Shown here: in pieces, positions 9,494 through 64,000 of the stretch
How the letters are laid out: each line of letters begins with the position of its first letter
Numbering within the stretch: position 1 is the stretch's first letter
NCBI RefSeq assembly: GCF_014196515.1
Contig: NZ_JACIDV010000011.1
Span: 62,001-126,000 of the forward strand
Reading direction: 5' to 3'
DNA from: Rhizobium skierniewicense
GTDB taxonomy: Bacteria > Pseudomonadota > Alphaproteobacteria > Rhizobiales > Rhizobiaceae
Length of the DNA stretch: 64,000 bases
Program-made: the position numbers and the translations under genes
Notes under the pieces: model-generated
Databases searched by the model: none
What the model was told of the DNA's origin: nothing
What the model saw: only the letters and a program-made list of their open reading frames with translations

Positions 9494-10653
9494 TCGATTT
9501 CCGGTCCTGGTGGCACGACTTCGTCCTCGATGGCGGAGAGTTCCACTTCTCGCACCCATTCGCGCCACACGGCAACGAGTAGGGCCATCAGGACCGGACC
9601 GATGAACAGGCCGAGAAAGCCCATCGTCTTGACGCCGCCGATCAGACCGAAAAAGGTTGGCAGGAAGGGTAATTTGATCGGGCCGCCGACAAGGCGTGGG
9701 CGGATGGTCTTGTCCACGATAAAAAGCTCGATCGAGCCCCAGGCCAGCAGCGCGATGCCTGCGGTGAGGGAACCGCTGGCCATGAGGTAGACGGACACGA
9801 GCGTGAACGACAAGGGCGCGCCACCGGGGATCAGCGCCATGACGCCAGTCAGGACGCCGAGGGTGACGGGCGAGGGGACGCCGGCGATCCAGTAGGCCAC
9901 GCCCAGGATGATGCCTTCGCCAATCGCGATCAGCGTCATGCCCGTCACGGTGGAGCTGATCGTGGCCGGAACGACACGGGAAATCCGCTCCCACCGCGTG
10001 GGCAGAATGCGCTCTCCGATAAGGTCGATCTGACGTGCGAAGCCGACGCCGTTGCGGTAGACGAAAAACAGCGCGATCAGCATGAAAAGCAATGTGAGGA
10101 TCAGATGGAATGCGCCGTTTCCGGCGGCGACGATGGCGCGGTAGATGTTGCCGATATTGGCGCCGCTGACCAGTTGGATGACCTCACCAATGGCGCCGGG
10201 TGTGCCGATGTAGCGAACCCATTGTTCGCTCATCCACAGGCCGACGCCGGGCAGGGCGGCAATCCATGCGGGCACGGGCGCTCCCACCTTGTTCACCTCG
10301 ACGGCCCAGCCGAACCATTCGCGGATTTCGCTGCCGGTATAGGAGGCTGCGATAAAGATCGGCACGATCAGGAAGGTAATGATGAGCAGCAATGCAAGAG
10401 TGGCGCCCACGGTGTTGTTGCCGCCCACGCGCCGCAACAGTTCACGGTAGACGGGCCAACTGGCGAAGCCGATGACCAATGCTGCGAGCACGGGAACGAG
10501 GAAGCCGTAGAAAAAGTAGATACCTGCGGCGACGATGAGAACCAGAAGCCAGCGCGCAGCCGAGATGGATGGCACGAGCGCGGTGCGCGCATGTGCTGCC
10601 GGACCAAGCCAGCGTGGCTCTGCGGGCTTTCTGGGCGTGTCAATTTTGCTCAA
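9460..10653 (-). CDS. AI-2E family transporter (PerM-like permease)
   Basis: The 397-residue integral membrane protein has an N-terminal pair of membrane segments (LLVLIVAAGIYFFYGFLVPVLAALVIGFASW). A central region precedes further membrane helices carrying GVLTGVMALIPGGAPLSF and the C-terminal VKTMGFLGLFIGPVLMALLVAVW, both characteristic of the AI-2E/PerM family. Despite the family name most members have no demonstrated AI-2 role. It is divergent from the ABC transporter and converges with the GNAT gene. Confidence 0.88.
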   Translation of the reverse strand: MSKIDTPRKPAEPRWLGPAAHARTALVPSISAARWLLVLIVAAGIYFFYGFLVPVLAALVIGFASWPVYRELLRRVGGNNTVGATLALLLIITFLIVPIFIAASYTGSEIREWFGWAVEVNKVGAPVPAWIAALPGVGLWMSEQWVRYIGTPGAIGEVIQLVSGANIGNIYRAIVAAGNGAFHLILTLLFMLIALFFVYRNGVGFARQIDLIGERILPTRWERISRVVPATISSTVTGMTLIAIGEGIILGVAYWIAGVPSPVTLGVLTGVMALIPGGAPLSFTLVSVYLMASGSLTAGIALLAWGSIELFIVDKTIRPRLVGGPIKLPFLPTFFGLIGGVKTMGFLGLFIGPVLMALLVAVWREWVREVELSAIEDEVVPPGPEIDHAAPLRKTAS

Positions 10654-15835: not shown

Positions 15836-16234
15836 ATGGCCCACCACCATCACCCGCCGCCCATAAATCGAATGCGCGCCAGAGGAATGCGAAAGGATTC
15901 GACGCGGGCGGAAAATATGCTGTGGCAGGCCCTTCGGGGTGGGAAGCTGGAAGGGTTCAAGTTCCGGCGTCAGGTGCCGATGCACACTTACATCATTGAT
16001 TTCGTCTGCTTCGACGCGAAGGTGATTATCGAGGTGGACGGCGCGCAGCATGCGGAAAGCGACGCCGATAGCAGGCGCGACGCGTATTTTCGCGATGAGG
16101 GCTTTGTCACGATGCGGTTCTGGAACGATGAGATTGAGAGGAACCTGGATTTTGTCTGTCTGAGTATCTTGGATCGTTTGCGGGGGCGTCAAAGCGCGGG
16201 GCGGGACCCCTCACTTGCGATTTCTAACACTTGA
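15836..16234 (+). CDS. DUF559 endonuclease-like protein
   Basis: The 132-residue protein belongs to the DUF559 (Vsr-like fold) group: TRAENMLWQALRGGKLEGFKFRRQVPMHTYIIDFVCFDAKVIIEVDGAQHAE. The DF and E-V-D residues match a very-short-patch-repair or restriction-endonuclease-like active site. Cellular role is unknown, though such genes are common in rhizobial genomes. The last ten residues (RDPSLAISNT) and the stop codon lie inside repeat A copy 2. The native C-terminus was therefore probably around DRLRGR and the present one is supplied by the repeat. Confidence 0.82.
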   Translation: MAHHHHPPPINRMRARGMRKDSTRAENMLWQALRGGKLEGFKFRRQVPMHTYIIDFVCFDAKVIIEVDGAQHAESDADSRRDAYFRDEGFVTMRFWNDEIERNLDFVCLSILDRLRGRQSAGRDPSLAISNT

Positions 16235-16300
16235 GCGGTGCTCAAGATGCTGAAATTGCTTTCTCTCCCACAAGGGGAGAGATAGAGCGGATGCCGCGCC
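16205..16300. repeat. Intergenic repeat A, copy 2
   Basis: This 96-base unit is nearly identical to 16492-16587. It includes TTTCTAACACTTGAGCGGTG, CTCAAGAT and CTCTCCCACAAGGGGAGAG. The latter is the reverse complement of the core of repeat B (CTCTCCCCTTGTGGGAGAG), so A and B act like inverted borders. It overlaps the 3' end of the DUF559 gene. Confidence 0.9.
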
Positions 16301-16354
16301 TTTTGCGCATGTTCGCGACTTCGACAGCAGACGAGATTTTCGGTGGTACGGCAG

Positions 16355-16435
16355 GGTTACCTCTCCCCTTGTGGGAGAGGAAGAAAAATCATGGTCTTAG
16401 CTTTGCTAAGTCATAGATTTTTCAGGTGAGGGGTG
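16355..16435. repeat. Intergenic repeat B, copy 2
   Basis: Second copy of repeat B, with the inverted core CCTCTCCCCTTGTGGGAGAGG. An AT-rich hairpin arm pair follows (AAAAATC / GATTTTT enclosing CTTAGC-TTT-GCTAAG). Confidence 0.88.
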
Positions 16436-16491
16436 GTGTCTGGCGCTGAGGGACAGTGTGCTGTGGCTTTTAGGTTCGCGGGTGGGGCTTG

Positions 16492-16587
16492 GACCCCTCA
16501 CTTGCAATTTCTAACACTTGAGCGGTGCTCAAGATGTTGAAATTGCTTTCTCTCCCACAAGGGGAGAGATAGGGCGGATGCCGCGCC
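16492..16587. repeat. Intergenic repeat A, copy 3
   Basis: The third A copy is 96 bases and differs from copy 2 at only a few positions. It is followed at about 16.6 kb by a sharp switch to AT-rich DNA containing the broken HNH gene, a possible insertion or recombination border. Confidence 0.88.
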
Positions 16588-16687
16588 GTTTGCGCAATTT
16601 CCTCGCCCCTTAAAGGCTGAAGAGAATTTCGATTATACAATGTGGTTTGCTAGATAACTTTAGGAACTGTGATTTCTAGAGCTGTAA

Positions 16688-17483: not shown

Positions 17484-17499
17484 TAATAGTTGTGAAAAC

Positions 17500-17610
17500 C
17501 AACCTAGTACTGGCCAATCCACCTGTAAATTATTGAAAAACCGCATGCGGATTTAAATATTGGATGTAACTCTGTCCATATTGGAAACTAGAACTGGCCA
17601 ACTGCGCAAG
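17500..17610. repeat. Repeated CTAG(T/A)ACTGGCCAA motif, candidate left end of the Tn7-like element
   Basis: CTAGTACTGGCCAA near 17504 and CTAGAACTGGCCAA near 17589 are spaced about 85 bases apart, both preceded by a GAAA-containing segment. They lie between the HNH gene and the distal end of the transposition operon. Multiple short direct repeats at an end are what TnsB binding sites look like, but I cannot define the terminal TGT or a target duplication. Confidence 0.3.
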
Positions 17611-17653: not shown

Positions 17654-19513
17654 TTACGGAAGGAAAGGAAAGTCTTTCACATCAAGGACGGAATAGAATT
17701 TTTTCTTCGATGCTATGAATTCCGGGAAGATGCCAGCCTCGGCCAGGCACCGCTCGATTCCTGCGGGTGTCTTGCGGTTGCGATAGGCCAGCGTGCCCGA
17801 AGATACGAAGGCTTCGATGAAGCGCGTTAACTCGTCAGGTTCTACGACAGTCTGCAAGTGCCGCTTCCATGGGTTCTTCCGTTTCACCGAGGCAAGGTGC
17901 CCATCTTCGATGAGCGCGTTGACAACCTTATGGGACGACGAGATCGCCAGCTCGACATCGCGGAGAGTTAGACAGCTATGTATGAAACCCTGCGTCTTTT
18001 TGCGAACCTCAAAAGGGTTCACGGCGATGGCGGCCAAACCTGATCTGCCTTCAATCCGTGCGATGTCGAGCTCTCCATCGAGGAGAAGACGTACGACCTC
18101 GCCATTCTTGCAGTTAGCCATCTTGGCAGCCTGGCTTACGTTTACGCAGTCTTCCATAGGTGGACACGGTGGAAGCGAGTCGAGGCGGCGACCCAACTCC
18201 TCGACGTCGGCGCGCCGGAAGCACATCGTTGCCGTTACATGAACCTTTTTGCTTGGATCTCTAACGCCTGCCACGGCGTCTTCGAGACGATGGAGAATGC
18301 CGAAGTTTACGATGCTCGCTAGCTGCGATCGTTCCGTCCCGAGCGCAGCTACCGCTTCCTTAAAGCTGAGCGCTTGTTTGACCTCTAGGCAGAACTTCTC
18401 CATTTCATCAACATCGAGGACGATCCGGTGATAAGATTTTCTTGCGCATTCGACGCCCACTTTTTTGCTCAAGATGAGTAGGTTGCGAAGACGTAGAGGC
18501 TGTAGGTCGTATTCCAAAGCGGCGGAGTGCACGGAATGCAATCTTCGGCTTGTAACCGGCCCGAGATTTTCAGCACCCTTACCCAGCGGGATGGTATTCA
18601 AGGTGACCTCGCGCATCACCTTCCGAAACGGCTCATACTCTTCCGTTGGCGTCGCCGCCGCCAGGACGTGGTACATATAGCCAAAAAGGCCTTTCCCTTT
18701 TATATCCGAATCGGTTTGCTGAAAGCGCCCAGCCAACCTCTCGAGAAACGCCTGAAAATTGGCTTCTGCGGCGTGGATCATGTCGTAACCACATGCTGCA
18801 GAAGTCGCCACTTGGAGCTCCTCCAGCTTTCCATACTGCACATTGATGCCGAACTGTTCAACGAGTCCGACGGCCTCGCAGATCCGTCCAACCACGTGGA
18901 TTGGGAACCTGTCCAGCCAGCGGTCTCCTTTGGGACCTGAACGAAGACGTCCTTCGACATATCCTTGATAGGCGTCCGGTTTAAATCGAGCCTTGGTTCC
19001 GGCGAGGGCCAAAATCTCCTTGTTGAAGAACGAAAGCTTCCCAGCGAAATCGTTTTCTAGATATTGGAGGGGCTCGTCCGATCTGAACGTGGAAATTGAG
19101 CTCTCGTGCTCCCTGCAAACGCTTACCGGACCCACCAGCCATTCAATCCTGCCGAAGGCTCGGAAGCCACGACGACCAGCGGCTGCGTGTTCGTCCTCGA
19201 GAACGCAGTGAGGGCAAACTCTCAGATGGGCTCTGCGCACCATCGCGCGGCTGAAGCGCTCTCCGGAGATTGTCCAAAACGGATCCGCTCTCGTGACAAG
19301 GCCGCGTGCAAGCGACGTTTTAGACGTTCCGAGTGCTGATGCAAATCGGGCAACGGCCTCCTCGCGACCCAATGCAAGCCCGCTGAATGTGAAACCAAGT
19401 CTGGTTGTAAATACGCGAGCGTTTTCATATCCGCAGGCCGCAGCTAGACGGGAGCAGTAGCTCATAAGGGATTCCCCTTCGTTAAAGGGGAGTAACTCAG
19501 CCAGTCGGGTCAT
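17654..19513 (-). CDS. tniQ: TniQ/TnsD-like target-selection protein
   Basis: The 619-residue protein has the TniQ N-terminus (LLPFNEGESLMSYCSRLAAACGYE). A zinc-binding motif CPHC at residues 100-103 pairs with CREH at 133-136 and is flanked by tryptophans (IEWLVGPVSVCREHE). The long C-terminal region is helical with helix-turn-helix-like stretches (VSQAAKMANCKNGEVVRLL). Full TnsD/TniQ proteins of this length normally recruit the transposase to a specific DNA site, while short TniQ proteins work with other partners. The start ATG at 19513 overlaps the tnsC stop (ATGA). It is the last gene of the operon. Confidence 0.87.
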   Translation of the reverse strand: MTRLAELLPFNEGESLMSYCSRLAAACGYENARVFTTRLGFTFSGLALGREEAVARFASALGTSKTSLARGLVTRADPFWTISGERFSRAMVRRAHLRVCPHCVLEDEHAAAGRRGFRAFGRIEWLVGPVSVCREHESSISTFRSDEPLQYLENDFAGKLSFFNKEILALAGTKARFKPDAYQGYVEGRLRSGPKGDRWLDRFPIHVVGRICEAVGLVEQFGINVQYGKLEELQVATSAACGYDMIHAAEANFQAFLERLAGRFQQTDSDIKGKGLFGYMYHVLAAATPTEEYEPFRKVMREVTLNTIPLGKGAENLGPVTSRRLHSVHSAALEYDLQPLRLRNLLILSKKVGVECARKSYHRIVLDVDEMEKFCLEVKQALSFKEAVAALGTERSQLASIVNFGILHRLEDAVAGVRDPSKKVHVTATMCFRRADVEELGRRLDSLPPCPPMEDCVNVSQAAKMANCKNGEVVRLLLDGELDIARIEGRSGLAAIAVNPFEVRKKTQGFIHSCLTLRDVELAISSSHKVVNALIEDGHLASVKRKNPWKRHLQTVVEPDELTRFIEAFVSSGTLAYRNRKTPAGIERCLAEAGIFPEFIASKKKFYSVLDVKDFPFLP

Positions 19514-20607
19514 TGCGGTCGTACTCCATATCTCGTGGCATTCTTGCCTTTCGCCTTAAGACGCGCGTCTACCCAGGCCCGATCCTCTTCCCTCAGCAGC
19601 GCGAGTGAAGGCTCAAGATCCTGCCAGTTGGAGGCCGAGAAAATGTTTCTGTTCGGTCGGCACCCTGAAAAGGACGCATAGGTATCGACGAAATCCTTGA
19701 GAGAAATGGAGTCGCGTCCAGCGAGAAGCGCAAGCTCGACCGCTCCGCGGATCATCTGAATGATGGAACCGAACTCCGCTTCGCAGGAGTGCGAGAGACG
19801 CTCGCGAAAGGCTTTTTCCCTATCCTGGAGATCTATGTCCATCTTCAGTCCACCATGCTTCGTCGCCACGGTGGCGAGCAATGTACCGATGAGGTCGTCG
19901 TCCCCGGAGATGGAGAGCGGTTCGAACGGCACCACTGTACGTCGGTTGTAGAGCTGTTTGCGCGCGAGGAAGAGAGCGAGAGGCGGCACTCCTGCCAGAA
20001 TAAGACGCACGGGCCAGTCGGGCATCTGCGTCAGTCCTTTCAGAGAGTTTCCGATGACGGTTTCTTCGCGCAGCGTAGCCGTCTCGATCGCGTGCTGAGC
20101 CTCGTCTATGAAGATCCACATCACCTTATGGACTTTCAGGAGCCGACGGAACTCTTCCCAAGCTTTGTGCTCAAGCAAATTGGGACTGGCGGCGATGCCC
20201 AAGGCCTTCATCCCGGTCAGCGCGACGAGCTTTGGTGTGCATGGAGAAGGGCACTCGAAGCATATCAATGGATGGATCTGGACGCCGTCTTCATCGATAT
20301 AGGAGGCCGTGGCCTTCAAGCTCTGTAGGTGCTTGATGACTGCAGTTGTCTTGCCGGCACCGGAATTGCCACATACGGCGACAATCCTACGCTTGTCCGG
20401 TGCGCCGGTAATTGGCGTCGCGACGCTGGCCACCATCGCTTTCAGCGCGTCCTGCAACAGCTCGTCACGTGTGAGTGGAATATACTCGGCGTAAATCAGC
20501 GAGATGCGGTCGGCCACCGTCAGCCGCTCCTCGCCGAGCAGGCCGCGGATACGGTCGATCGCAGCCTGACTGCGTCGCGCCTCATGTTCCTTGTCAAATC
20601 TAGCCAT
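19510..20607 (-). CDS. tniB: TnsC/TniB-like AAA+ transposition regulator
   Basis: The 365-residue AAA+ ATPase contains Walker A GNSGAGKTT at residues 80-88 and Walker B IFIDEAQH (DEAQ at 168-171). The sensor-type segment VRLILAGVPPLA follows. This matches the TniB/TnsC family that bridges target selector and transposase. I start at ATG 20607 (MARFDKEHEARRSQ), 10 bases after the tnsB stop; the upstream in-frame extension overlaps tnsB and is unlikely. It is coupled to tniQ by a 4-base overlap. Confidence 0.88.
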   Translation of the reverse strand: MARFDKEHEARRSQAAIDRIRGLLGEERLTVADRISLIYAEYIPLTRDELLQDALKAMVASVATPITGAPDKRRIVAVCGNSGAGKTTAVIKHLQSLKATASYIDEDGVQIHPLICFECPSPCTPKLVALTGMKALGIAASPNLLEHKAWEEFRRLLKVHKVMWIFIDEAQHAIETATLREETVIGNSLKGLTQMPDWPVRLILAGVPPLALFLARKQLYNRRTVVPFEPLSISGDDDLIGTLLATVATKHGGLKMDIDLQDREKAFRERLSHSCEAEFGSIIQMIRGAVELALLAGRDSISLKDFVDTYASFSGCRPNRNIFSASNWQDLEPSLALLREEDRAWVDARLKAKGKNATRYGVRPQ

Positions 20608-20617
20608 GTTGGATGTC

Positions 20618-22942
20618 CTATTCGTCATCGAAGATGTCGTTGCTAATGATGCGGACGGGCGACGTCTCTTGGTCGTCATTGTCGGCAGATGATTGGTTTG
20701 AAGTCGAGTTCTCTGGAGCCATCCCAATCGCAGGGCGGCCACCCGCTTCTGCTTCCTGGCGGAGTTCCTTCATTGTCCGTGTCTTGGCGTAGACCACAGG
20801 CTCGATGCGCAAGGCCGCGAAAAGTTCGTCGGACGGATGCCACTCGCCGACCGGGCGGGGTTCACCCTTGACGGGGCTGTCCATGATGTCGAAGACATGA
20901 TCCATCTTTTTCTCGAAGCGCAGATAGTCATCGTCGGTCAGAACCGGGTTGACGAGGCCGGCCTCGAGCCGTGCCATGTCCGCCTGCTGTTTGAGCCAGC
21001 CAAATGTGTCGAGCATGGTCTGCCGGGAAGCTTTCCCGTTTTCGGCGTTGAACAGCTTCAGGCGTTCGGACGCCGCCAGCCACTGCCAGATACTCACGCC
21101 TTCCAGTTCGGAATGGACACATGGGACCTCGATCCAGCCGTCCGGCGTCAAAACCGAAATGGCGCCCAGGTTATGATTGTTAACGCGCCCAAGAAGCGGG
21201 GCTTTGTTCTTCTTCCGGCGCATCTGCTGGAGCTCCTTGCTCTGGAAGTAGAGACCCGCTACCCGGTAGCCTTTCTTGGAGGCCTTGCGGGTCACGTAGG
21301 TTCCGAACAGGTGGGTGCGTAAGGTGCCGGTCGGACCCGGCTGGACGCCGTGGACACCTGCGAGCTCATACCAAGTGTTGAGCGGCGTCGCCCCGTTCAG
21401 CTCTGAATGCGGCGCGTTATGATAGGCGTCGACGCACCAGCGGATCATGCATTCGGCGACCTGATCAGCTACCATGTTTGCGTATGCTTCTGCATCGTAG
21501 TCGCCCTTCTCGTCGGAAGACGACCAGGTTCGACCATCGAAGTAATTGAACATCTGGTGACTGAATGTTTGAAACCAGCGCTCAATGAAGCCGCGCCAGG
21601 AGGCGTCGCCCGCGCGAGGCAGAAAAATTTCGATCCCGGCGTCGTTCAGGGCGACTCGATAGGGTCGGTGCGCGAAATACATCGCGCTATCCGTCGCCAC
21701 GGTTTCATGGGTCCCGCCCTGGGGCCAAGCAGACTGGCAACCGAGGCGTCGGGCAATTTCGGTCTTGTCGCGTGTCGACATCTCCAGGGCGGTCATGGCC
21801 GATTTGAGGGAAGGGGGTTCGCAGGTTACGTGGAGGGCGACGATTCCCCGGCTTGCCACGCAGATCATCGCCGTAATGGTGAGGCGGAGTCGTTTGATCT
21901 TCTTTTTCTGTGCTTTAGAAAGCGTTTTCCAGATGCCGACCTTCACGAGGAGCGTCTGAAGGTCTGTCTCGTGATCGTCGCATTCTACCCGTTCAAGTGG
22001 GCGGATAACATCAAGGCCGCCGTGCTCGGGCTGCCATTCCCGACGCGCCGCCTCTTTCCCGTTGCGACCGAGATCGCGCCACATTTCCGGCTGCGCGTTG
22101 AAGCGGTTGCGGAGCGTCTCCTCGCACGGGATGCGAAGCTGGTCATTCGGTCCGCGGAACTTGTTCTCTGCCTCGATCTTCCGCTCCATCTCGCGATGGA
22201 TCGCCGCCAGATCCGGTCTTGTACGCGAGCAAGCCTCGCCGATGGCTTCGCTGAGATGTACGAACTCGTCCGGTGTGAAATACTCCGGCCGGTCGCGCCT
22301 GTAGTCATTTCTGAGGCAGATGGGATTGAAGTCGTTCGTCTCCATCTCGAGAATCCAGCTCTTGACGGTGGAAGGCTTGGGCTCGAACAGAGCGAGGGTG
22401 GCTTTCGTTCGGTAGGTAAGAGCTTTCGCGCCCTTGACGCTAGTCTGCATGTCCCGCCACTCGAGGGCGATCTGCGGGATGATACGGAGGAGTGGCTCGC
22501 GCGACTTGCTCACGACGGCTGGCATCGGCATGCCGTCGATGCGGGCGAGACGCCGCTTCTCAAGAAACTCCGATCGAAGTTCGAAAAATCTGCGGACAAA
22601 GAATTCTTTGCGGAGAACGTCCTCCTGATCGTTTGGTGTCAAGGTAGACAGGCTGCTGGAGCCGGAAAGACGAGCCTTAGCCGGACTTTTTCCGAAATAG
22701 CCGAACTCGACCGTCATAGGATTGCCGGGGCGATTTAGCCTTTCATTGAGTTCGGGCTGGGTAAAGCTTACGTTCGCGTTGGTCTCGTCCGTGCGACGCA
22801 GCACTGCCCCATTACGGTCACAGTGGAGGACGTAGTACTCGATGCCGAGGTCCTTGATCCGGGCATTTTCCGGAAGCCGGACGTATGGAAGCGACGCGGG
22901 GTTGTGCTGGAGAGCGAGAAGCTGTCTTAGATCGGGTTGCAT
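20618..22942 (-). CDS. tniA: TnsB/TniA-like DDE transposase
   Basis: The 774-residue transposase has a retroviral-integrase-type core. The first Asp is in VECDDHETD (about 322-323), the second is D418 in VATDSAMYF, and E454 is in GFIERWFQTF, giving DD35E spacing. A Mu/TnsB-type beta-barrel region follows (YVTRKASKKGYRVAGLYFQSKEL and NNHNLGAISVLTPDGWIEVP). The acidic C-terminal tail (DNDDQETSPVRIISNDIFDDE) fits the TnsC-contacting tail of TnsB. It sits between tnsA and tnsC, nine bases from the tnsA stop. All catalytic residues are present. Confidence 0.9.
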   Translation of the reverse strand: MQPDLRQLLALQHNPASLPYVRLPENARIKDLGIEYYVLHCDRNGAVLRRTDETNANVSFTQPELNERLNRPGNPMTVEFGYFGKSPAKARLSGSSSLSTLTPNDQEDVLRKEFFVRRFFELRSEFLEKRRLARIDGMPMPAVVSKSREPLLRIIPQIALEWRDMQTSVKGAKALTYRTKATLALFEPKPSTVKSWILEMETNDFNPICLRNDYRRDRPEYFTPDEFVHLSEAIGEACSRTRPDLAAIHREMERKIEAENKFRGPNDQLRIPCEETLRNRFNAQPEMWRDLGRNGKEAARREWQPEHGGLDVIRPLERVECDDHETDLQTLLVKVGIWKTLSKAQKKKIKRLRLTITAMICVASRGIVALHVTCEPPSLKSAMTALEMSTRDKTEIARRLGCQSAWPQGGTHETVATDSAMYFAHRPYRVALNDAGIEIFLPRAGDASWRGFIERWFQTFSHQMFNYFDGRTWSSSDEKGDYDAEAYANMVADQVAECMIRWCVDAYHNAPHSELNGATPLNTWYELAGVHGVQPGPTGTLRTHLFGTYVTRKASKKGYRVAGLYFQSKELQQMRRKKNKAPLLGRVNNHNLGAISVLTPDGWIEVPCVHSELEGVSIWQWLAASERLKLFNAENGKASRQTMLDTFGWLKQQADMARLEAGLVNPVLTDDDYLRFEKKMDHVFDIMDSPVKGEPRPVGEWHPSDELFAALRIEPVVYAKTRTMKELRQEAEAGGRPAIGMAPENSTSNQSSADNDDQETSPVRIISNDIFDDE

Positions 22943-22951
22943 GCTTATCTC

Positions 22952-23797
22952 TCAGTTTTTGTGATTGAATTTGACGAAGGGGGCGTCGACGAGCATGAGA
23001 TCCGGCCGGACCGGTTCGAGGATCTCGTCATGGATAAGGCACCAGACCGCGTTCCAGCCGTGGGCGGGAATTCCCCAACCCGCCAGAAGGTCGCGGATGT
23101 GGACGGTGCCATGAAAGCGCGATGCATAATCCCGCAGACGGTCGTTGTCGGTTTTGGAGGAGTGCTTGAGGGCTCGAAGGATACTCTTCGCGTTCCAGCA
23201 TCGTGCGTCCGTGGCTTCCTTTTCGGTGATGATGGTAGCGCCATCGGCAAAGCCATGTGGTAAGTTCTGGTCGAGGGTACCGATCGTGAAAGCCAAGCCG
23301 TCCTTTTCGAGCATGTCGGATGGTCTAACCCCGACGACGATCACGGTTCCCGTCGACATGGTGGCCCGATAATCGACCGTGTGCTGTGAAGTGCCGTCCT
23401 CCTGCCGGATTAGGACTGCCGAAGGCTGATCTTCGACGAGCACGACGTGCTTGGACGCACACATCATGTAAGCGAGATTGCGCTCATATGTGCTCGAGAA
23501 CGTGATTGCCTTCCTCGTCTTGCCGTTGACGAGACTTCCGCGGCTGTGGGACTTCGTCCGGGCTGGGTACCAGCGCGACGGCGTCGGCTCCTCGGTCGGC
23601 TTCCAGACGGTAGGAATGCTAATCAGGTCTTCGAGTCCTTCGTCGTCGACACCGGAGGCGTCGAAAGGAAGATACTGTCCCGAGACTGGTTGCGAGGCAC
23701 GAAGGAACAGTGTTTCGGAAGGGATCGCTTCCAAGGTCCGGTCGTAGCCGGATTCCAGTTCCTTGATGTAACGGATGATCTGTCGAATGCGGGTCAT
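22952..23797 (-). CDS. tnsA: TnsA-like endonuclease subunit with a substituted catalytic lysine
   Basis: The 281-residue protein occupies the tnsA position directly before the transposase. TnsA has a restriction-endonuclease fold with E-D-(Q/E)xK catalytic residues. Here the glutamate is E105 in SSTYERNLAY and the aspartate D142 in HTVDYRAT. The strand that should carry (Q/E)xK reads IVVGVRP (G156, R158), so the lysine is replaced by arginine and the acidic/Gln residue by glycine. A C-terminal TnsA-C-like helical domain follows (DLLAGWGIPAHGWNAVWCLIHDEIL). The start is ATG 23797, preceded by GGAG at a normal distance. Confidence 0.78.
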   Translation of the reverse strand: MTRIRQIIRYIKELESGYDRTLEAIPSETLFLRASQPVSGQYLPFDASGVDDEGLEDLISIPTVWKPTEEPTPSRWYPARTKSHSRGSLVNGKTRKAITFSSTYERNLAYMMCASKHVVLVEDQPSAVLIRQEDGTSQHTVDYRATMSTGTVIVVGVRPSDMLEKDGLAFTIGTLDQNLPHGFADGATIITEKEATDARCWNAKSILRALKHSSKTDNDRLRDYASRFHGTVHIRDLLAGWGIPAHGWNAVWCLIHDEILEPVRPDLMLVDAPFVKFNHKN

Positions 23798-24161
23798 TGC
23801 AGCTCCTTGGGCGTGCGTTTCCCCGTGCCGACCAGGAAGGATGGTCGGTTTGGGAATGTTGATGAAGGGGGAAGGCGCCGCACTTTCGGAAGGTAAGGTG
23901 GGCACCGGATGCCAGTGTCGTTTCTAGTTGGGGCGGCGACGCGCGCGGAACGCGAAGTCATGTGCCTGACCCGAGGCACCTGCGGAAATGGGGTGATGGT
24001 GGATGGAGACGAAGTTCATCGAGGGCTCCTTTCGAGCGCGCAGGTTTCCTGTCCCGGCCACGTCGTGGTCGGGTCACTGATGATTTGCAGTCAATTTTCG
24101 GAAGGCACCGCTATGATGTGCGGCGAGGCTCTTCGAAGTCTTGGTCGAGTGGCATCGTTGC
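23798..24161. other. Intergenic gap upstream of tnsA
   Basis: About 360 bases without a gene I can support. Frames here are short and read as low-complexity Arg/Ser or Thr/Pro translations. The operon promoter for tnsA-tniA-tniB-tniQ presumably lies here, but I see no convincing -35/-10 pair. Confidence 0.5.
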
Positions 24162-24641
24162 CTACCGATCGGTTGCCGAAGCCTTAGGGATCACGTCGTC
24201 AAGGTCTGGAATCTCGATGCTCCGGAGTGCCGAACCAAAAGTCCGGCCATCGAACACGGCAATGTCGGCACCCAGGCTCGAACGGTATGCTGCTCCCCGT
24301 CTTTTCGATTTCTCAGCTCGGAGGTTGGTGGCGACAGCGATCTGCGCGCGTTCTACGCGGCGTCGGAACGTGCGTTCGGAAGGCAACATACCGGCGTTTC
24401 CGAACTCTTCTAGAACCGCCCGTTCCAGCCGTTGATAGTGGTAACGGACTGACTGGTGTTTCAAACCGTTTACGCAAGAGGCGACCGCAGCATCGAATTG
24501 GGACAGCGTCCCTAAGCGGCGCGCTTTGCTGGCGTGCGTCTCAAGGCGAAGGCTCGCCTGAACAAGCCTTTGGAAGATTTCCTCGACCTGGGGTTTGAAA
24601 ATCGGCATGCAGAGCGTGTGGTGAGAATACTTGTTGTCCAT
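24162..24641 (-). CDS. Hypothetical protein upstream of the tns operon
   Basis: The 159-residue protein is mostly helical and charged (PQVEEIFQRLVQASLRLETHASKARRLGTLSQFDAAVASC and RTFRRRVERAQIAVATNLRAEKSKRRG). It ends with DIAVFDGRTFGSALRSIEIPDLDDVIPKAS. No family is recognised. The ATG at 24641 is chosen because AAGGAG lies at ideal spacing; two upstream ATGs are possible. Its orientation matches the transposition genes, so it may be an accessory or regulatory gene of the element. Confidence 0.6.
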   Translation of the reverse strand: MDNKYSHHTLCMPIFKPQVEEIFQRLVQASLRLETHASKARRLGTLSQFDAAVASCVNGLKHQSVRYHYQRLERAVLEEFGNAGMLPSERTFRRRVERAQIAVATNLRAEKSKRRGAAYRSSLGADIAVFDGRTFGSALRSIEIPDLDDVIPKASATDR

Positions 24642-37063: not shown

Positions 37064-38392
37064 ATGGACAAACCGATCAAAGGCTGGCGGCGGACCGTGG
37101 GTGAGGCATCTCTATCGGATGTTCACCGTTCCATCGGAGTTGCTGCGGGATCAGGCACCTTCCGCAGGGCAATGGCCTTTTTCGGCCCCGGCTATCTTGT
37201 TGCAGTCGGATACATGGATCCGGGCAACTGGGCCACGTCGCTGGCTGGCGGATCGAGGTTCGGATACGCACTGCTCACTGTGGCGCTTGTCTCGAACATC
37301 ATGGCGATCGTTCTGCAGTCGCTTTGCGCGCGGCTTGCCATCGGTTCCGGGCGGGATCTGGCGCAGGCGTGCCGGGACGCTTTCCCAAAGCCAGTGGCCA
37401 TGGTTCTATGGCTGCTCGCCGAGATCGCCATCATCGCGACAGACATCGCCGAGGTGATCGGCACCGCGATCGGCCTCAACCTCATCTTCGGCATCCCGCT
37501 GGAACTCGGGGTCATCATCACCGCACTGGACGTTTTCCTGATCCTGTACCTACAGAAGCTCGGCTTCCGTTGGGTCGAGGCGCTCGTCATAACGCTGCTC
37601 GGCGTGATCGCTGTCTGCTTCACGATCCAGATCGTGCTTGCCGATCCGGACTGGGGCCAGGTCATTCTCGGCTTTGCGCCCACCACCGAGATCGTCACCA
37701 ACCCGGACATGCTCTATCTTGCGCTTGGCATCCTCGGCGCGACGGTCATGCCGCATAATCTCTATCTCCATTCCGGAATCGTGCAGACCCGCAACTACGG
37801 CCACTCGCTTCCCGAGAAGCGCGAAGCCCTGAAGTTCGCGACGATCGACTCCACTGTCGCGCTGATGTTCGCTTTGCTCGTCAACGCTTCCATCCTCATC
37901 CTTGCCGCGGCGACTTTCCACAAGACCGGACAGACGTCCGTTGCGGAACTGGGCGAAGCCCATAATCTGCTTGCCCCACTGCTGGGCCTTGCCATAGCTC
38001 CGACGCTGTTCGGGATCGCGCTTTTGTGCTGCGGCATCAATTCGACCGTGACCGCGACCCTTGCTGGCCAGATCGTCATGGAAGGGTTCCTCAAGATACA
38101 GCTAGCGCCGTGGCTTCGCCGCCTGATCACGCGGGGGATAGCCATCATTCCCGCCGCGGGTGTCACCATCGCATTCGGAGACAGCGGCACCGGGCAGCTA
38201 CTGATCCTCACCCAGGTCGTCCTCAGTCTCCAGCTTTCCTTCGCAGTATTTCCGCTCGTGATGTTCACTTCTGATCGCGCGAAGATGGGGGAACTCAAGG
38301 CACCGCTTTGGCTCACGTCGTTTGCCTGGCTTATCGCCGTGGTGATCGCCTTGCTGAACATCAAGCTCCTGTTCGATTTCGTCAGCTCCTAG
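37064..38392 (+). CDS. mntH: Nramp family Mn2+ transporter MntH
   Basis: The 442-residue proton-coupled manganese importer has the Nramp hallmarks DPGNWATS (metal-binding DPGN in helix 1) and [10 protein letters not shown] (MPH in helix 6), with about eleven membrane segments. The N-terminal cytoplasmic segment is short. The nadE gene follows 62 bases downstream. It is unusual among the island's exporters because it imports metal, consistent with manganese uptake under oxidative or metal stress. Confidence 0.95.
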
Positions 38393-60365: not shown

Positions 60366-60842
60366 CAGCCAGTGCGTTACCTTTCAGGCGTCAGAACGCA
60401 CTACGCCGTAAAGCCAGGGAACGCCTCGACCTCGGAGCCGCCCAATGCGTCGCGAACCACAGATCAGAAGGCACCGACTGTTTGTTAAGTATTCCCCCAG
60501 CACTGCGACAAGCGGGACTGCTTCAAGCTGTCGCTTGATCTGAACAGCGACAGGCTGCAGAGTCCGACCCCTTGTCGGGCGCTCGAAATCAGCAGATCGA
60601 GGGTGCTGGCACCATGCGTGCGAAGGCGGTCCCGCCCTTTATACCACGACGCTTTTGCGATAAGATTACATCAGCGCCCCGGCAGGTAAATGCCGATGAA
60701 ATTGAATTCGCTATTGACTTTCTTATTTTTGTTCATATTTTGTTCCGCATGATCAAGATGCTGAACATATCTCGAATAGGTTGAACGGGCAGGCCGCTCC
60801 GAAGCGGCGCAGGCAACGTTTATCTAATCGAGGGTGTTCATG
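60366..60842. other. Intergenic region before the SOS-type operon
   Basis: About 480 bases without a gene I can support. The left part is GC-rich and non-coding; the right part turns AT-rich and holds the promoter and LexA box of the operon that follows. Confidence 0.6.
60714..60745 (+). promoter_or_regulatory. Promoter with overlapping alphaproteobacterial LexA box
   Basis: TTGACT (60714-60719) is followed after 16 bases by TATTTT (60736-60741). GTTCATATTTTGTTC (60731-60745) is a GTTC-N7-GTTC direct repeat with a T-rich centre, the LexA site of Rhizobiales and Caulobacter. It overlaps the -10, so bound LexA would block transcription. The first gene starts about 100 bases downstream. Confidence 0.78.
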
Positions 60843-61457
60843 ATGAGCTATCCGCATTTTGATACGTCAGCGGCCCTGTATGCCGCTTTTGATGAAGCTT
60901 CTTCTAAACTCTTCTATCCTAAGGGCACTGTACGGTGCTCAGGCGACCCAATGTATCGGTCACGAGCAGCGAGAGACCTTGGCTGCGTTCTAGACGTCGA
61001 TCCGGCTGTCGTCGCCTGGCTCTGCCTGCCATTGGAGTTCGATACTGAACTCGGCCCCCACGTTCCCGACTTTTTTGTCAACTACGAGCGCGGCAAACCC
61101 TTTCTCCTCGACGCTGTCGAGGATGAGGAAAATCCTGCGATCAAGGAAGGCGCTGCCCTTGCCGGTTACCAGTATCGGGGCATCCCGCGAAAGGAGATCG
61201 AGGCGGGTTTTCGGCTTGCCAACGCCCGTGATCTCCTTCGCTACGCCCACTCCAGGACGCCTCTGAACGACAGGATCAGAATGCTGTCCGCGCTTGACGA
61301 GGCAGGCTCCCTGACTGTCGCAGAATGCCTGCATATTTTCACTGAAGTTAAGCCGATGACAGGCATCTCTTGGATGGCCCTCCATCAATTGATCGCGCTC
61401 GATCTCGACGAGAGGATGATCGACCCCGAGACGGTCATCCGTCGCTTTCAGCGCTAA
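60843..61457 (+). CDS. TnsA-N-like protein with atypical active site
   Basis: The 204-residue protein contains AWLCLPLEFDTELGPHVPDFFVNYERGKPFLLDAVEDEE. This resembles the TnsA N-terminal/PD-(D/E)xK pattern (VPDF followed by a strand), but the expected E-x-K is replaced by DAVED. The remainder is helical (KEIEAGFRLANARDLLRYAHSRT, then a wHTH-like C-terminus MTGISWMALHQLIALDLDERMIDPETVIRRF). Start ATGs at 60840 and 60843 follow GAGGG. It is the first gene of the LexA-controlled operon, 11 bases before the AAA+/M41 gene. Confidence 0.65.
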   Translation: MSYPHFDTSAALYAAFDEASSKLFYPKGTVRCSGDPMYRSRAARDLGCVLDVDPAVVAWLCLPLEFDTELGPHVPDFFVNYERGKPFLLDAVEDEENPAIKEGAALAGYQYRGIPRKEIEAGFRLANARDLLRYAHSRTPLNDRIRMLSALDEAGSLTVAECLHIFTEVKPMTGISWMALHQLIALDLDERMIDPETVIRRFQR

Positions 61458-61468
61458 GCGAGGTTGTA

Positions 61469-63346
61469 ATGGAAAACTTCTCGAAACGTCGCCGCACGGT
61501 GACGCTTGAGCGCATGGCCTATGCGCTCACTCTCAAGTCGGCAGCACGGCTGGGCGGTGCCTTTAAAACAAATGAGATCGGTCGGCATATCGTGATTGTC
61601 CTACGGATCCCTTCTGGATCCGTACTTGACGAATATGTCGCCGCAGCAAGCCTTCTGACGAGCACCAATGAGAGCCTTTCCAGCTTTGAAATCTCGTCAC
61701 CTAAACTCGGCACCAAAGGCGGTATTGATGGTGAACTGGTCAGCGGCCAATTGAAATCCAGGCGTTCTATCCTCATCATCTGGCCGTCGGAACATGGGTT
61801 GCCAAGAGAAATCGACCTGGCGGCCGACCGAGTTGTAGACGTCGGTGCGGTAAGACCATTCCATCTGGCTGCCGCCGCGAAGGAGTTCTCGGGCCAGAAT
61901 GTCGATATGGCGGATGCGCGGAAGATGCTGGAGCATCCTCTTGCAGAAGTCTTTGCTGCCTTCAGGGCAGGAAGACCTGTCTCGGACGTTCTGGCGCGAC
62001 TTGCCGCACTTAAGACAGATACGCAACCGCCTGTCGTGGAAACCTCGCCACCTCTCGATCATCTTGTAGGTTACGGTGACGCGAAGACTTGGGGACTGTC
62101 TCTGGCGAGAGACATCGCTGCGTGGAGAGACGGAAAGCTTGCCTGGTCAGACCTAGACCGGGGACTGCTCCTGAGCGGAGCGCCTGGAACAGGGAAGACG
62201 ATGTTCGCCAGCGCGCTCGCGCGGTCGTGCGGTGCACATCTGGTCGCGACGTCGGTCGCGCGGTGGCAGGCGGCCGGGCATCTCGACGACACTTTGAAAG
62301 CGATGCGCAGAAGTTTCGATGAGGCGAAGGCACAGAAGCCAAGCATTTTGTTGGTCGACGAGTTCGACGGTATCGGCGATAGAGATAAGGTTGTCGGAAC
62401 CGAACACGAAACCTATTGGAGACAGGTGATCAACTTCTTGCTCGAGTTGATCGACGGCCACGACAGGCTCGAAGGCGTCGTCGTCATCGGCGCCACCAAT
62501 CATCCGGAAGCGATCGACGCCGCTCTCCTGCGGCCGGGGCGGCTTGACCGGCATATTCGTATTCCGCTGCCGGATGCAGAGGAGCGAAAACATCTCTCGC
62601 GTACTTATTTCGGTACCCAGTTGTCAGACCGCGAGGTGGACGCGATCGCTGCGGCGACCGTTGGGTTAACCGGTGCGCATTTCCAGACAGTCGGTCGAGA
62701 CGCAAAGCGGCTTGCCCGTGCAGAGGGAAGGGCTGTTTCATATGCAGACGTGATGTCGGCTTTGCCACCAGCGAGAAAGATCACCGGGGGCGAGCGGAGG
62801 ACGATCGCCATTCACGAGGCGGGACATGCGGTCGTGGGGGTTCGACTGGGCGTCGGATTGTTGGACACCGTCGCCGTACCCTGGGAGGCCCATGCCGGAC
62901 AACCTTTAGGGTTTGCACATTTCGAGATCGAGGAAGACCAGCTTAGGGAGCGTCAAGGATGTCTTGATCAGATCGCCTTGCTGCTTGCAGGGAGAGCGGC
63001 GGAAGAGGTCATCCTTGGCACTGCGTTCGATGGCGCGGGTGATGCCGAGGGCTGCGACCTGCACATGGCAAGTGACCTTGCCACTAGGATGGAAGTTCAA
63101 CTTGGGATGGGAGAGGGGCTTGGCTACTTCAATTTGAAATCCGTCGAGCAACGCGATCGTTTCCGACGAAACAATCCTGACGTCGCCGCCCGCATCGAGC
63201 GTGGCCTCAGTCGAGAAATGGAGCGCAGCCGGGAAATCGTGACGCGTTTCCGGGACGCCATCGAAAGGATCGCCGACGTTCTGGTGGAGAAGGCAATTAT
63301 CGAGGGTGACGAAGTCAGGGCGATCATTCGGGAGACTTCAAGATGA
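61469..63346 (+). CDS. Soluble FtsH-like AAA+ ATPase with M41 zinc protease domain
   Basis: The 625-residue protein has an unfamiliar N-terminal domain (about 1-200, no membrane helices). The AAA+ module has Walker A GAPGTGKT (237-244), Walker B DEFD (297-300) and second-region GATNHPEAIDAALLRPGRLDRHIRI. An M41 peptidase domain follows with zinc motif HEAGH (449-453). Unlike FtsH it lacks N-terminal membrane anchors, so it is probably cytoplasmic. The ATG at 61469 is preferred; the open frame extends 33 codons upstream into the previous gene. Its stop overlaps the next start (ATGA). Confidence 0.88.
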   Translation: MENFSKRRRTVTLERMAYALTLKSAARLGGAFKTNEIGRHIVIVLRIPSGSVLDEYVAAASLLTSTNESLSSFEISSPKLGTKGGIDGELVSGQLKSRRSILIIWPSEHGLPREIDLAADRVVDVGAVRPFHLAAAAKEFSGQNVDMADARKMLEHPLAEVFAAFRAGRPVSDVLARLAALKTDTQPPVVETSPPLDHLVGYGDAKTWGLSLARDIAAWRDGKLAWSDLDRGLLLSGAPGTGKTMFASALARSCGAHLVATSVARWQAAGHLDDTLKAMRRSFDEAKAQKPSILLVDEFDGIGDRDKVVGTEHETYWRQVINFLLELIDGHDRLEGVVVIGATNHPEAIDAALLRPGRLDRHIRIPLPDAEERKHLSRTYFGTQLSDREVDAIAAATVGLTGAHFQTVGRDAKRLARAEGRAVSYADVMSALPPARKITGGERRTIAIHEAGHAVVGVRLGVGLLDTVAVPWEAHAGQPLGFAHFEIEEDQLRERQGCLDQIALLLAGRAAEEVILGTAFDGAGDAEGCDLHMASDLATRMEVQLGMGEGLGYFNLKSVEQRDRFRRNNPDVAARIERGLSREMERSREIVTRFRDAIERIADVLVEKAIIEGDEVRAIIRETSR

Positions 63347-63501
63347 GTGAGGGGATTCGACGTCGGCGTCGAATCGCAATTACGGTGGAAGCGGAACCGT
63401 GTCGTTGTTTCGCGGAGGATTTTCTGGGCGACCATCCATCTGATCGCTCTTCTCGGCACGAGTATTACAAGCAGATTGCTTGCGGGCATCGGGACGACTA
63501 A
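63343..63501 (+). CDS. Small hypothetical protein coupled to the protease
   Basis: The 52-residue product starts at ATG 63343 within the M41 protease stop codon. It is very basic at the start (SEGIRRRRRIAITVEAEPC) and ends HEYYKQIACGHRDD. With Cys and His spaced along its length it could bind metal, but no family is recognised. Translational coupling is the main evidence. Confidence 0.5.
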   Translation: MSEGIRRRRRIAITVEAEPCRCFAEDFLGDHPSDRSSRHEYYKQIACGHRDD

Positions 63502-63531
63502 TAACTGGTGAGGCTCAAGGGGAATCTAGAT

Positions 63532-64000
63532 TTGTACAACTTACTGATGATGGGCGATGACAGTGAGTGGAACGTTACGGTCGGAGACGTCCACGAAGCG
63601 TCGTTTCCGCTTGCTCGCTACCTCGAGTACACCGAAGCAAGCATCGAGGAGCGATTGAAGCCCATTACGGAGGAGGTCAAAGTTTTTCTCGGCCAATTGC
63701 CGGCTCTCTTCATGAGCGAACTACAGAACGACATTAGCGGTCGCTCGTACGTCAGAATTCGACTGGGTCAGGCATGGAATATCCGGATCGTCGGTGCCGA
63801 CCTCATATATAATTTCTGCATAAATCAGTTGTTTGGCGAGCATACCATTGTTGACAGGAAAGCTTTTGAAAGCGTTTTTGCGTTTGGGAAGTGGGAGCTA
63901 AGTCGAACCCACTGGGCGGTGAAGGATCGAGACCTTCAAGCAACTCTCGCGATCGCCGGAGTTTCCCCTCAGGTAGGTCAGGCTGGTGGCCTGCCGATCA
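63532..64000 (+). CDS. Unknown protein, 3' end beyond window
   Basis: The open frame from TTG 63532 (spaced 8 bases after AAGGGGA) or ATG 63547 runs to the window edge with no stop. About 156 residues are visible: YNLLMMGDDSEWNVTVGDVHEASFPLARYLEYTEASIEERLK, then a segment with RSYVRIRLGQAWNIRIVGADLIYNFCINQ. It looks like a genuine protein of mixed alpha/beta type. No family is recognised. It is probably the fourth gene of the LexA-controlled operon. Confidence 0.65.
   Translation, partial: MYNLLMMGDDSEWNVTVGDVHEASFPLARYLEYTEASIEERLKPITEEVKVFLGQLPALFMSELQNDISGRSYVRIRLGQAWNIRIVGADLIYNFCINQLFGEHTIVDRKAFESVFAFGKWELSRTHWAVKDRDLQATLAIAGVSPQVGQAGGLPI

Follow-up and report, generated by a model that had tools for sequence, protein, structure and literature searches.

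The window analysed here is a stretch of 64,000 nucleotides from Rhizobium skierniewicense, and near its end lies an operon with the following features (coordinates prefixed L003 belong to the locus as extended past the window):

60714..60745, + strand: promoter, with a LexA-type box GTTCATATTTTGTTC at 60731-60745 overlapping the -10
60840..61457, + strand: gene 1, catalytically degenerate TnsA paralogue of 205 aa (NF033179, AF2 model, fold searches)
61469..63346, + strand: gene 2, AAA+/M41 zinc metalloprotease of 625 aa (PF00004 1.5e-30, PF01434 1e-21)
63343..63501, + strand: 52-aa ORF, probable truncated start of a third gene (by eye against relatives)
63508..64000, + strand: start of an FRG-domain gene of 465 aa, continuing past the window to L003:2905 (PF08867 3.6e-22)

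The original prediction described four tightly spaced genes, and the spacing was confirmed: 11 bases separate the end of gene 1 (61457) from the start of gene 2 (61469), the 52-aa ORF starts at 63343 in an ATGA overlap with gene 2, and a short gap divides its end at 63501 from the next ORF at 63508. As for the two proteins described as unknown, the third ORF keeps the ATGA overlap, loses the sequence of its relatives after the first codons and is probably the truncated beginning of a gene that they retain, while extension of the sequence past 64 kb, as had been proposed, identified the fourth as the FRG-domain gene. No FRG-domain gene was recognised by eye as the third gene at the other loci holding the gene 1-gene 2 pair; on comparison of these loci, a four-gene operon was rejected as the conserved unit, which is made of two genes plus a variable third one, with the FRG-domain gene outside it. 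In the relatives the third gene, which varies between loci, encodes a candidate YefM/Phd-like protein.

The promoter has a -35 element TTGACT (60714-60719), a 16-bp spacer and a -10-like TATTTT (60736-60741), on which the GTTC-N7-GTTC box is placed as predicted. In the window this motif occurs twice against 2.28 matches expected, so that the pattern alone is uninformative; the operon box is considered real because it is conserved across homologous loci. It is kept at 25 of 26 such loci, which include close relatives and thus are not 26 independent cases, against 0.14 expected from dinucleotide shuffles, and a chance origin was ruled out by this conservation. Excluded from the count are L022, which lacks both gene 2 and the box, the fragment loci L031, L032, L034 and L046-L048 (of which L031 has the box), the distant L033, where a box but no gene 2 was found, and L045, a true TnsA lacking the box. 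The same motif lies upstream of the genome's own lexA, and also of a LexA/UmuD-type gene preceding umuC. LexA control of the gene pair is supported on these sequence grounds, the box being of the alphaproteobacterial type, inside a promoter and kept in orthologues. The second match, at 24402-24416 on the - strand, about 500 bp before a tnsA-like gene, was taken as chance, since it falls within an ORF, its spacer is unlike the others and two matches agree with expectation.

Gene 1 had been predicted to encode a nuclease-fold, TnsA-N-like protein lacking a normal catalytic triad, and both parts of the claim were borne out. The protein matched NCBIfam NF033179 with E=1.8e-8, below the family cutoff, and had no match in Pfam; nor did TnsA turn up when PDB sequences alone were searched with a profile. 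The structure prediction that had been suggested gave an AF2 model with pLDDT 81.8, and in both fold searches the TnsA structures 9bw1, 1t0f and 1f1z took the top three places. An origin unrelated to TnsA was ruled out by the family match and the fold searches. The model has the whole TnsA fold, with a nuclease-fold N domain and a winged-helix C domain. The catalytic Glu is replaced by Ala44 and the Lys by Val93, and Asp77 is retained. Among the homologues the Glu occurs in 0 of 26 (Ala in 25, Val in one), the Lys in 0 of 26 and Asp77 in 26 of 26, whereas all three residues are kept in 5/5 true TnsA proteins used for comparison. This alignment (A2) was made without L016, L031-L034 and L045-L048, which are near-duplicate, fragmentary, distant or true TnsA. 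Because the catalytic Glu and Lys are absent, gene 1 is classed as a TnsA homologue and not as an active TnsA. Searched across the class, the gene 1 profile matched 5 of 385 genomes, namely that of the window and four with weak matches; three of the latter (loci L064-L067) read as true Tn7-like tnsA, and the fourth is L069.

Gene 2, as predicted, looks like a soluble FtsH-type protease, with AAA and then M41 domains. Its motifs are intact by alignment: Walker A and HExxH are present in 25/25 homologues and Asp530 is invariant (alignment A5, without L016 and L022, where the gene is truncated or lost). It differs from FtsH in its own N-terminal 200 residues, in scoring 189.8 bits with the FtsH family model against a cutoff of 600, and in having no clear membrane segment; the missing anchor was judged from hydropathy alone, with a maximum over 19 aa of 1.46 in the window copy. 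Within the N-terminal 200 residues this maximum stays under 1.6 in all but two of 25 proteins, the window's among the 23; the exceptions are L027 (1.71) and L030 (1.62). The AAA domain also scores with IetA anti-phage ATPases (IetA 3.9e-26), a likeness to the IetAS defence pair, in which a related AAA domain likewise occurs with a protease. In IetAS this protease is separate and of the subtilisin type, and IetAS is not known to have a TnsA-like partner.

A link to mobile elements, a guess in the original prediction, is strongly supported: the operon sits inside a 54,325-bp Tn7-like element, the tns genes of which also fall within the window (17654-23905), and relatives of the operon are accompanied by Tn7-like tnsB. 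The features of the element are as follows:

17486..17517, + strand: target duplication ATAGT (17486-17490) and low end, with the first TnsB-site-like repeat (17491-17517)
17585..17601, - strand: second TnsB-site-like repeat of the low end
17654..19513, - strand: tniQ (PF06527 2.6e-12)
19510..20742, - strand: tnsC/tniB (PF05621 2.8e-10)
20618..22942, - strand: tnsB, DDE transposase of 774 aa (tblastn with Tn7-like TnsB, E=7e-28)
22952..23905, - strand: tnsA-like gene (NF033179 5.3e-8, below cutoff)
L003:9776-9815: matching far end, followed by ATAGT at 9816-9820 (window-equivalent 71815 and 71816-71820)

Thus tnsB, tnsC and tniQ, by which Tn7-like elements are recognised, are found together. 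The tnsB product scored weakly in Pfam (Mu-transpos_C 0.03); the tnsA-like gene, with no Pfam match, keeps the Glu and the Asp, by eye, with Arg replacing the Lys. Inverted ends with TnsB-site-like repeats and a 5-bp target duplication, also typical of such elements, are present: the ends are identical at 21 of 27 positions when inverted, none of 200000 random pairs being as good, with ATAGT on both sides. Inverted repeat copies lie at the far end (L003:9769-9785 and 9789-9805), with a weaker one seen by eye at 9747. The distance from the end of the element to nrdJ, a conserved gene (NF005736, 2356 bits, over cutoff), is about 25 bp. The insertion is beside the 3' end of this gene, at a site empty in relatives: homology to same-genus genomes ends at the nrdJ 3' end in 15/15, and the far flank of the element lies near nrdJ in two of the seven relatives read over 20 kb (G787, G791) and was not found there in the other five. 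The exact empty site was not seen base for base in the relatives. An operon belonging to the host alone, outside any mobile element, was ruled out by the ends and the target duplication.

We examined co-occurrence in other genomes, a check that had been proposed. Gene 1 and gene 2 identities co-vary with rho 0.86, and a search of 30 further genomes found TnsB in 15/15 that hold the pair versus 0/15 without it. By contrast, no such relation was seen between the identities of gene 1 and TnsB (rho 0.12, Mantel 457 of 2000), and hence no tight co-evolution of the two; gene 1 products sharing 72-90% identity with that of the window occur in genomes whose TnsB is 22-26% identical. Since the genes co-vary mutually and not with TnsB, they seem to pass as a pair from one transposon backbone to another and not to be bound to one transposase. 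At L028 and L030 the pair is followed, after 0.6-0.8 kb, by an ORF that occupies the tnsA position (in L030 without an NCBIfam family at E<=0.1) and then by tnsB, all on the same strand. At L015, L016, L021 and L023 the pair and tnsB are on different contigs. In the wider protease family, tns genes were found in the fetched stretch at 20 of 64 loci, downstream and on the same strand at 16, and G154, G222 and G319b have the order box-protease-tnsA-tnsB. Boxes could be missed at four of the 64 loci, where the contig ends upstream (G324 after 72 bases, G259 after 938, G344 after 1228, G272b after 1472). Transposon ends were sought at L126, where none was recognised, and at L129, where three repeats lie beyond tniQ; no inverted partner was found in G154. 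The co-occurrence of relatives of the pair with such elements suggests that transposons may carry their own damage-triggered protein remover.

The earlier interpretation is partly supported: comparison speaks for LexA control, the relation to TnsA, the lost residues, the absence of a clear anchor and, strongly, the mobile-element link, and against the four-gene operon. The position of the operon inside the element, the box, the gene pair, its co-occurrence and the catalytic residues were all computed, and the explanation that we favour, giving it about an even chance, is that the operon serves Tn7-like transposons as an accessory module under LexA control: its dead TnsA would be the adaptor of an unfoldase-protease, and the latter would remodel transposition complexes. 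LexA would repress the operon; DNA damage would inactivate LexA, and the dead TnsA paralogue and the AAA+/M41 protease would be made. The former, having kept both TnsA domains, would most likely be the adaptor, recognising transposition complexes or transposon-end DNA via its TnsA fold and delivering complexes to the AAA+ ring, where a Tns protein would be unfolded or degraded. The stable complex would thus be freed after strand transfer and transposition tied to host damage. Here we infer the LexA binding, the adaptor role, the substrate and the direction, more or less transposition, of the effect. This explanation is favoured because tns genes, inverted ends and the 5-bp duplication enclose the operon, because homology to relatives ends at the nrdJ 3' end, because TnsB accompanies the pair, L028 and L030 show the layout described and tns genes recur in the wider protease family, because the box is conserved, and because the catalytic Glu and Lys of gene 1 are lost while Asp77 and the protease motifs persist; the effect of ClpX on CAST integration is a precedent. 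It is weakened by the low correlation with TnsB, by the cargo-like siting of the pair, which in the window is separated from tnsB by 38 kb and has defence and other genes around it, by the four loci with tnsB on another contig, by the lack of a family match for the ORF in the tnsA position of L030, by the many distant protease relatives with neither tns genes nor box, and by plasmids: 18 plasmid records match gene 1, and for three with an apparently complete pair no TnsB was among the matches listed (60 of 1556). A bolder version, in which this portable module is an obligate partner of Rhizobiaceae Tn7-like transposons and damage licenses or completes transposition, is offered tentatively, as somewhat more likely to fail than to hold.

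The main competing explanation is action in defence or against competitors. In the first case the pair would be cargo, a damage-triggered anti-phage or anti-plasmid system: foreign or broken DNA would be sensed by the dead TnsA, and the protease would kill or block. The same element carries Pycsar-type genes (PF10137 1.3e-32 with cNMP-binding 2e-13, two cyclase-domain proteins) and an E2 protein, annotated CBASS genes occur at L040, and L042 has a nearby S8 peptidase/ATP-binding pair and a Kiwa-like gene; the swapping between backbones, the variable third gene and the IetA-like AAA domain also agree with this reading. The cargo of Tn7-like elements is described as rich in defence systems (PMC8649781). 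Ordinary cargo, however, would be expected to be absent from many elements and present without them, unlike the 15/15 versus 0/15 distribution with TnsB, and it would not account for a first gene that is itself a TnsA relative or for a pair preceding the tns genes on one strand in L028 and L030. Moreover, gene 1 matched none of the PADLOC models at E<=1, and we regard the defence reading as rather unlikely.

That the dead TnsA replaces TnsA in rival Tn7-like complexes, which the protease then destroys so that the resident excludes others, would fit a fold kept without catalysis and the many different backbones; it appears improbable, because the resident would be poisoned too unless self-protected, LexA control has no apparent need, and G800, G801 and G802 each have two TnsB places alongside the pair, so that exclusion, if any, is incomplete. 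Still more doubtful, and to our judgement very improbable, is a host-directed SOS protease riding on the transposon by chance and cleaving, for instance, a cell-division or repair protein: the LexA box and the resemblance of the Phd/YefM-like third gene to unstable antitoxins would suit it, but it leaves the TnsA-related partner and the TnsB co-occurrence unexplained.

Returning to the accessory module, gene 1 shares the fold of Tn7 TnsA (PDB 1f1z, 1t0f; transpososome 9bw1) without its catalytic Glu and Lys, and its neighbour in the window is a protease gene instead of tnsB, the element having its separate tnsA-like gene. ClpX, an AAA+ unfoldase, acts on the MuA transposition complex, releasing the stable complex after strand transfer. 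The role proposed here, an AAA+ unfoldase working on a DDE transposition complex, is that of ClpX on MuA and on CRISPR-associated transposases; ClpX is a host protein, whereas here the transposon would carry its own unfoldase, fused to M41 and LexA-controlled. Added ClpX raised CAST integration in human cells (PMC12719977). Tn6022, a Tn7-like element, has likewise adopted an enzyme that lost its activity, TnsF, but TnsF has a tyrosine recombinase fold, selects targets and has no protease (PMC10293859). In the open-access literature no paper was found, among the matches listed, that pairs a TnsA-type protein with an M41/FtsH protease or describes a Tn7-like element carrying one, and none was found on DUF6634. 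A Shewanella CAST was unresponsive to SOS, which its authors call consistent with earlier Tn7 findings (PMC12452197). If our explanation is true, the elements described here would be SOS-responsive, which Tn7 and the I-F3 CAST are reported not to be, and the module would be a candidate natural transposon-borne counterpart to ClpX, and a possible answer to the question of who disassembles Tn7-type complexes. A protease module associated with Tn7-like elements is here preceded by a LexA box, as is, at three loci, the protease that heads the tns genes.

The operon is arranged as follows (L003 is the stretch that runs past the end of the window, with L003:9815 equivalent to window position 71815):

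60714-60741, forward strand, sigma-70-type promoter, read from the sequence
60731-60745, forward strand, LexA-type box GTTCATATTTTGTTC (GTTC-N7-GTTC), overlying the promoter -10
60840-61457, forward strand, gene 1, a catalytically degenerate TnsA paralogue of 205 aa
61469-63346, forward strand, gene 2, an AAA+/M41 protease of 625 aa, 11 bases after gene 1
ATGA overlap with the end of gene 2, forward strand, ORF of 52 aa
63508 to L003:2905, forward strand, FRG-domain ORF of 465 aa

The protease encoded by gene 2 matched the AAA (1.5e-30) and M41 (1e-21) domains, and the Walker A and HExxH motifs were intact in 25/25 homologues; Asp297-Glu298, Arg355, Arg358 and Asp530 were invariant. No membrane segment was found by hydropathy in the window's protein (maximum 1.46).

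In the window as a whole the box pattern occurred at chance level (2 found versus 2.28 expected). Of 26 homologous loci, 25 carry it in the 260 bases preceding gene 1, against 0.14 predicted by dinucleotide shuffles and 0.006 per 260 bases over the rest of that strand; some of the loci are close relatives, and not all are therefore independent. The box-bearing loci included ones in which gene 1 was only 34-36% identical, and at the locus lacking the box (L044) the best site matched 7/8 bases. In the window's genome, a box GTTCCATATGTGTTC lies about 60 bases ahead of a lexA match and another, GTTCACTATTTGTTC, about 90 bases ahead of a LexA/UmuD-type match followed by umuC (NF002955, 429.2 bits versus a cutoff of 431). 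We infer that LexA binds upstream of gene 1.

The operon, at 60.7-63.3 kb, is inside a Tn7-like element, since the boundaries of the latter enclose it. The landmarks of the element are:

17501 and 17585, two repeats TTGGCCAGTNCTAGNTT, beyond tniQ
17654-19513, reverse strand, tniQ
19510-20742, reverse strand, tnsC
20618-22942, reverse strand, tnsB
22952-23905, reverse strand, tnsA-like gene (NF033179, 5.3e-8)
L003:9769, L003:9789 and, more weakly, L003:9747, inverted partners of the TTGGCCAGTNCTAGNTT repeats

The end beginning TGTGAAAACC and its inverted partner are identical at 21/27 positions, a value equalled by 0 of 200000 random pairs, and ATAGT flanks both ends. The element thus delimited spans window 17491 to window-equivalent 71815 (54,325 bp), with its far end about 25 bp from the stop of nrdJ (NF005736, 2356 bits). 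Homology to same-genus relatives starts at 71840-71847 in 15/15. For seven of these relatives, 20 kb was examined for the far flank: in G787 window 15534-12997 reappears about 1.25 kb past nrdJ, in G791 window 12596-3 comes after nrdJ with an mntH-like stretch between, and in the other five no flank stretches of 150 bases or more were found. A base-for-base empty site was not seen in the relatives.

Some further features of this region were observed. By eye, the element's own tnsA-like gene has Arg for the catalytic Lys and Gly for the second acid; several tnsA-position ORFs adjoining tnsB in related elements have Val-Lys at that position. The same transposon carries Pycsar-type genes (a cNMP-binding and CAP12/PCTIR TIR effector, two cyclase-domain proteins) and a prokaryotic E2 protein at L003:5096-9649 (window-equivalent 67096-71649), as well as an mntH, Nramp-like by eye, at window 37064-38392; mntH-like stretches lie near nrdJ in 5/15 same-genus relatives (L214 among them). 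Just outside the low end, window 16204-16601 holds two 111-nt repeats, 95% alike, and L187 and L189, from two relatives, have short stretches resembling this region close to nrdJ.

Thirty genomes were searched with the TnsB query P0004 (E<=1e-10). TnsB was found in 15/15 genomes holding both gene 1 and gene 2 (the latter truncated at L016) and in 0/15 others, namely 11 Rhizobiaceae without the pair, 3 with gene 1 fragments and G799, where gene 2 is lost (L022). Fisher p is 3e-9 once the window's genome is included; since the pair-holding genomes were selected for the presence of the pair, and two very small members of the family were not among the genomes searched, the result is a comparison rather than a census. 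In L017-L020, L024 and L025, where the lengths of the contigs agree, the distance from tnsB to the pair is about 7-49 kb, and in G105, G236, G349, G361 and G385 it is about 3-24 kb; in L015, L016, L021 and L023 tnsB sits on a different contig, which gives no evidence of proximity. On plasmids, 18 records matched gene 1, and at least 11 of them have a TnsB among the best 60 of 1556 matches, 11 to 245 kb away; a twelfth, from Vibrio, carries a true TnsA. Of the remaining six, 3 have fragments and 3 an apparently complete pair with no TnsB among these 60 matches.

Gene 1 and TnsB identities were unrelated over 15 loci (rho 0.12, Mantel 457/2000), and gene 1 and gene 2 identities rose together (rho 0.86, 14 loci with full gene 2). 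In L016-L019 and L021, proteins of the pair share 72-90% identity with those of the window and accompany a TnsB of 22-26% identity, on a shared contig in L017, L018 and L019. Thus, judging by sequence comparison, the pair looks like a unit swapped among different Tn7-like backbones.

The pair consists of a TnsA relative expected to be unable to cleave and a working unfoldase-protease, has Tn7-like transposases alongside and would be switched by LexA; most likely it acts on transposition complexes. The disassembly of MuA by ClpX is a precedent. It could recognise a general feature, either TnsA-like contacts or end structure, which is consistent with backbone exchange. The same exchange is also consistent with a possible role in defence or against competitors. 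As for published work, ClpX addition raises integration by a CAST in human cells (PMC12719977). In a term search of three articles on Tn7-like elements, protease, SOS and LexA occur 0 times in PMC8649781, FtsH and SOS 0 times in PMC10293859 (protease 5 times, as reagents among the 12 of 21 matches listed), and protease, ClpX and SOS 0 times in PMC11406308. The expression of one I-F3 CAST showed no SOS effect, which the authors of PMC12452197 call consistent with Tn7 findings.

The gene 2 profile found 64 places in 46/397 genomes of the order, all scanned by script. The fetched stretch contained tns genes at 20/64 (downstream and in the same orientation at 16, on the opposite strand at 4), a box within 1.5 kb upstream at 19/64 (0/64 for the reversed control pattern) and a gene 1-like match at 16/64, some being the element's own tnsA. 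In L028 and L030 the order, on one strand, is box, gene 1, gene 2, a tnsA-position ORF (NF033179 6.3e-5 in L028, no family match in L030) and tnsB, followed by tnsC and tniQ in L028 and by a P-loop ORF in L030. In G034, G076, G327 and, twice, G375 the protease comes after a TnsA-like gene, recognised mainly through its C-terminal half, and tns genes lie farther along. Box, protease, tnsA and tnsB follow one another on one strand in G154, G222 and G319b, and in G154 tnsC, tniQ and three end-like repeats come next.

Ahead of its tns genes, the G154 element (L129:5056-13869) carries the LexA box, the AAA-M41 protease and a further gene, which weakly matches tyrosine recombinases (Phage_integrase 0.004, below cutoff) and so brings TnsF to mind. 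Other protease loci have a DUF6634 protein as neighbour, and further ones had neither a recognised partner nor a box in the 64-locus scan; at these loci the protease may serve another purpose. The window's own genome has another, more distantly related AAA-M41 copy (G000:C8:137557-139371, L109), with neither box nor tns genes over the stretch fetched. Many TnsA-less AAA-M41 proteases (L100, L102-L105, L108, L112 and others) have a protein of about 110 aa next to them; three of these proteins were scanned and all matched DUF6634.
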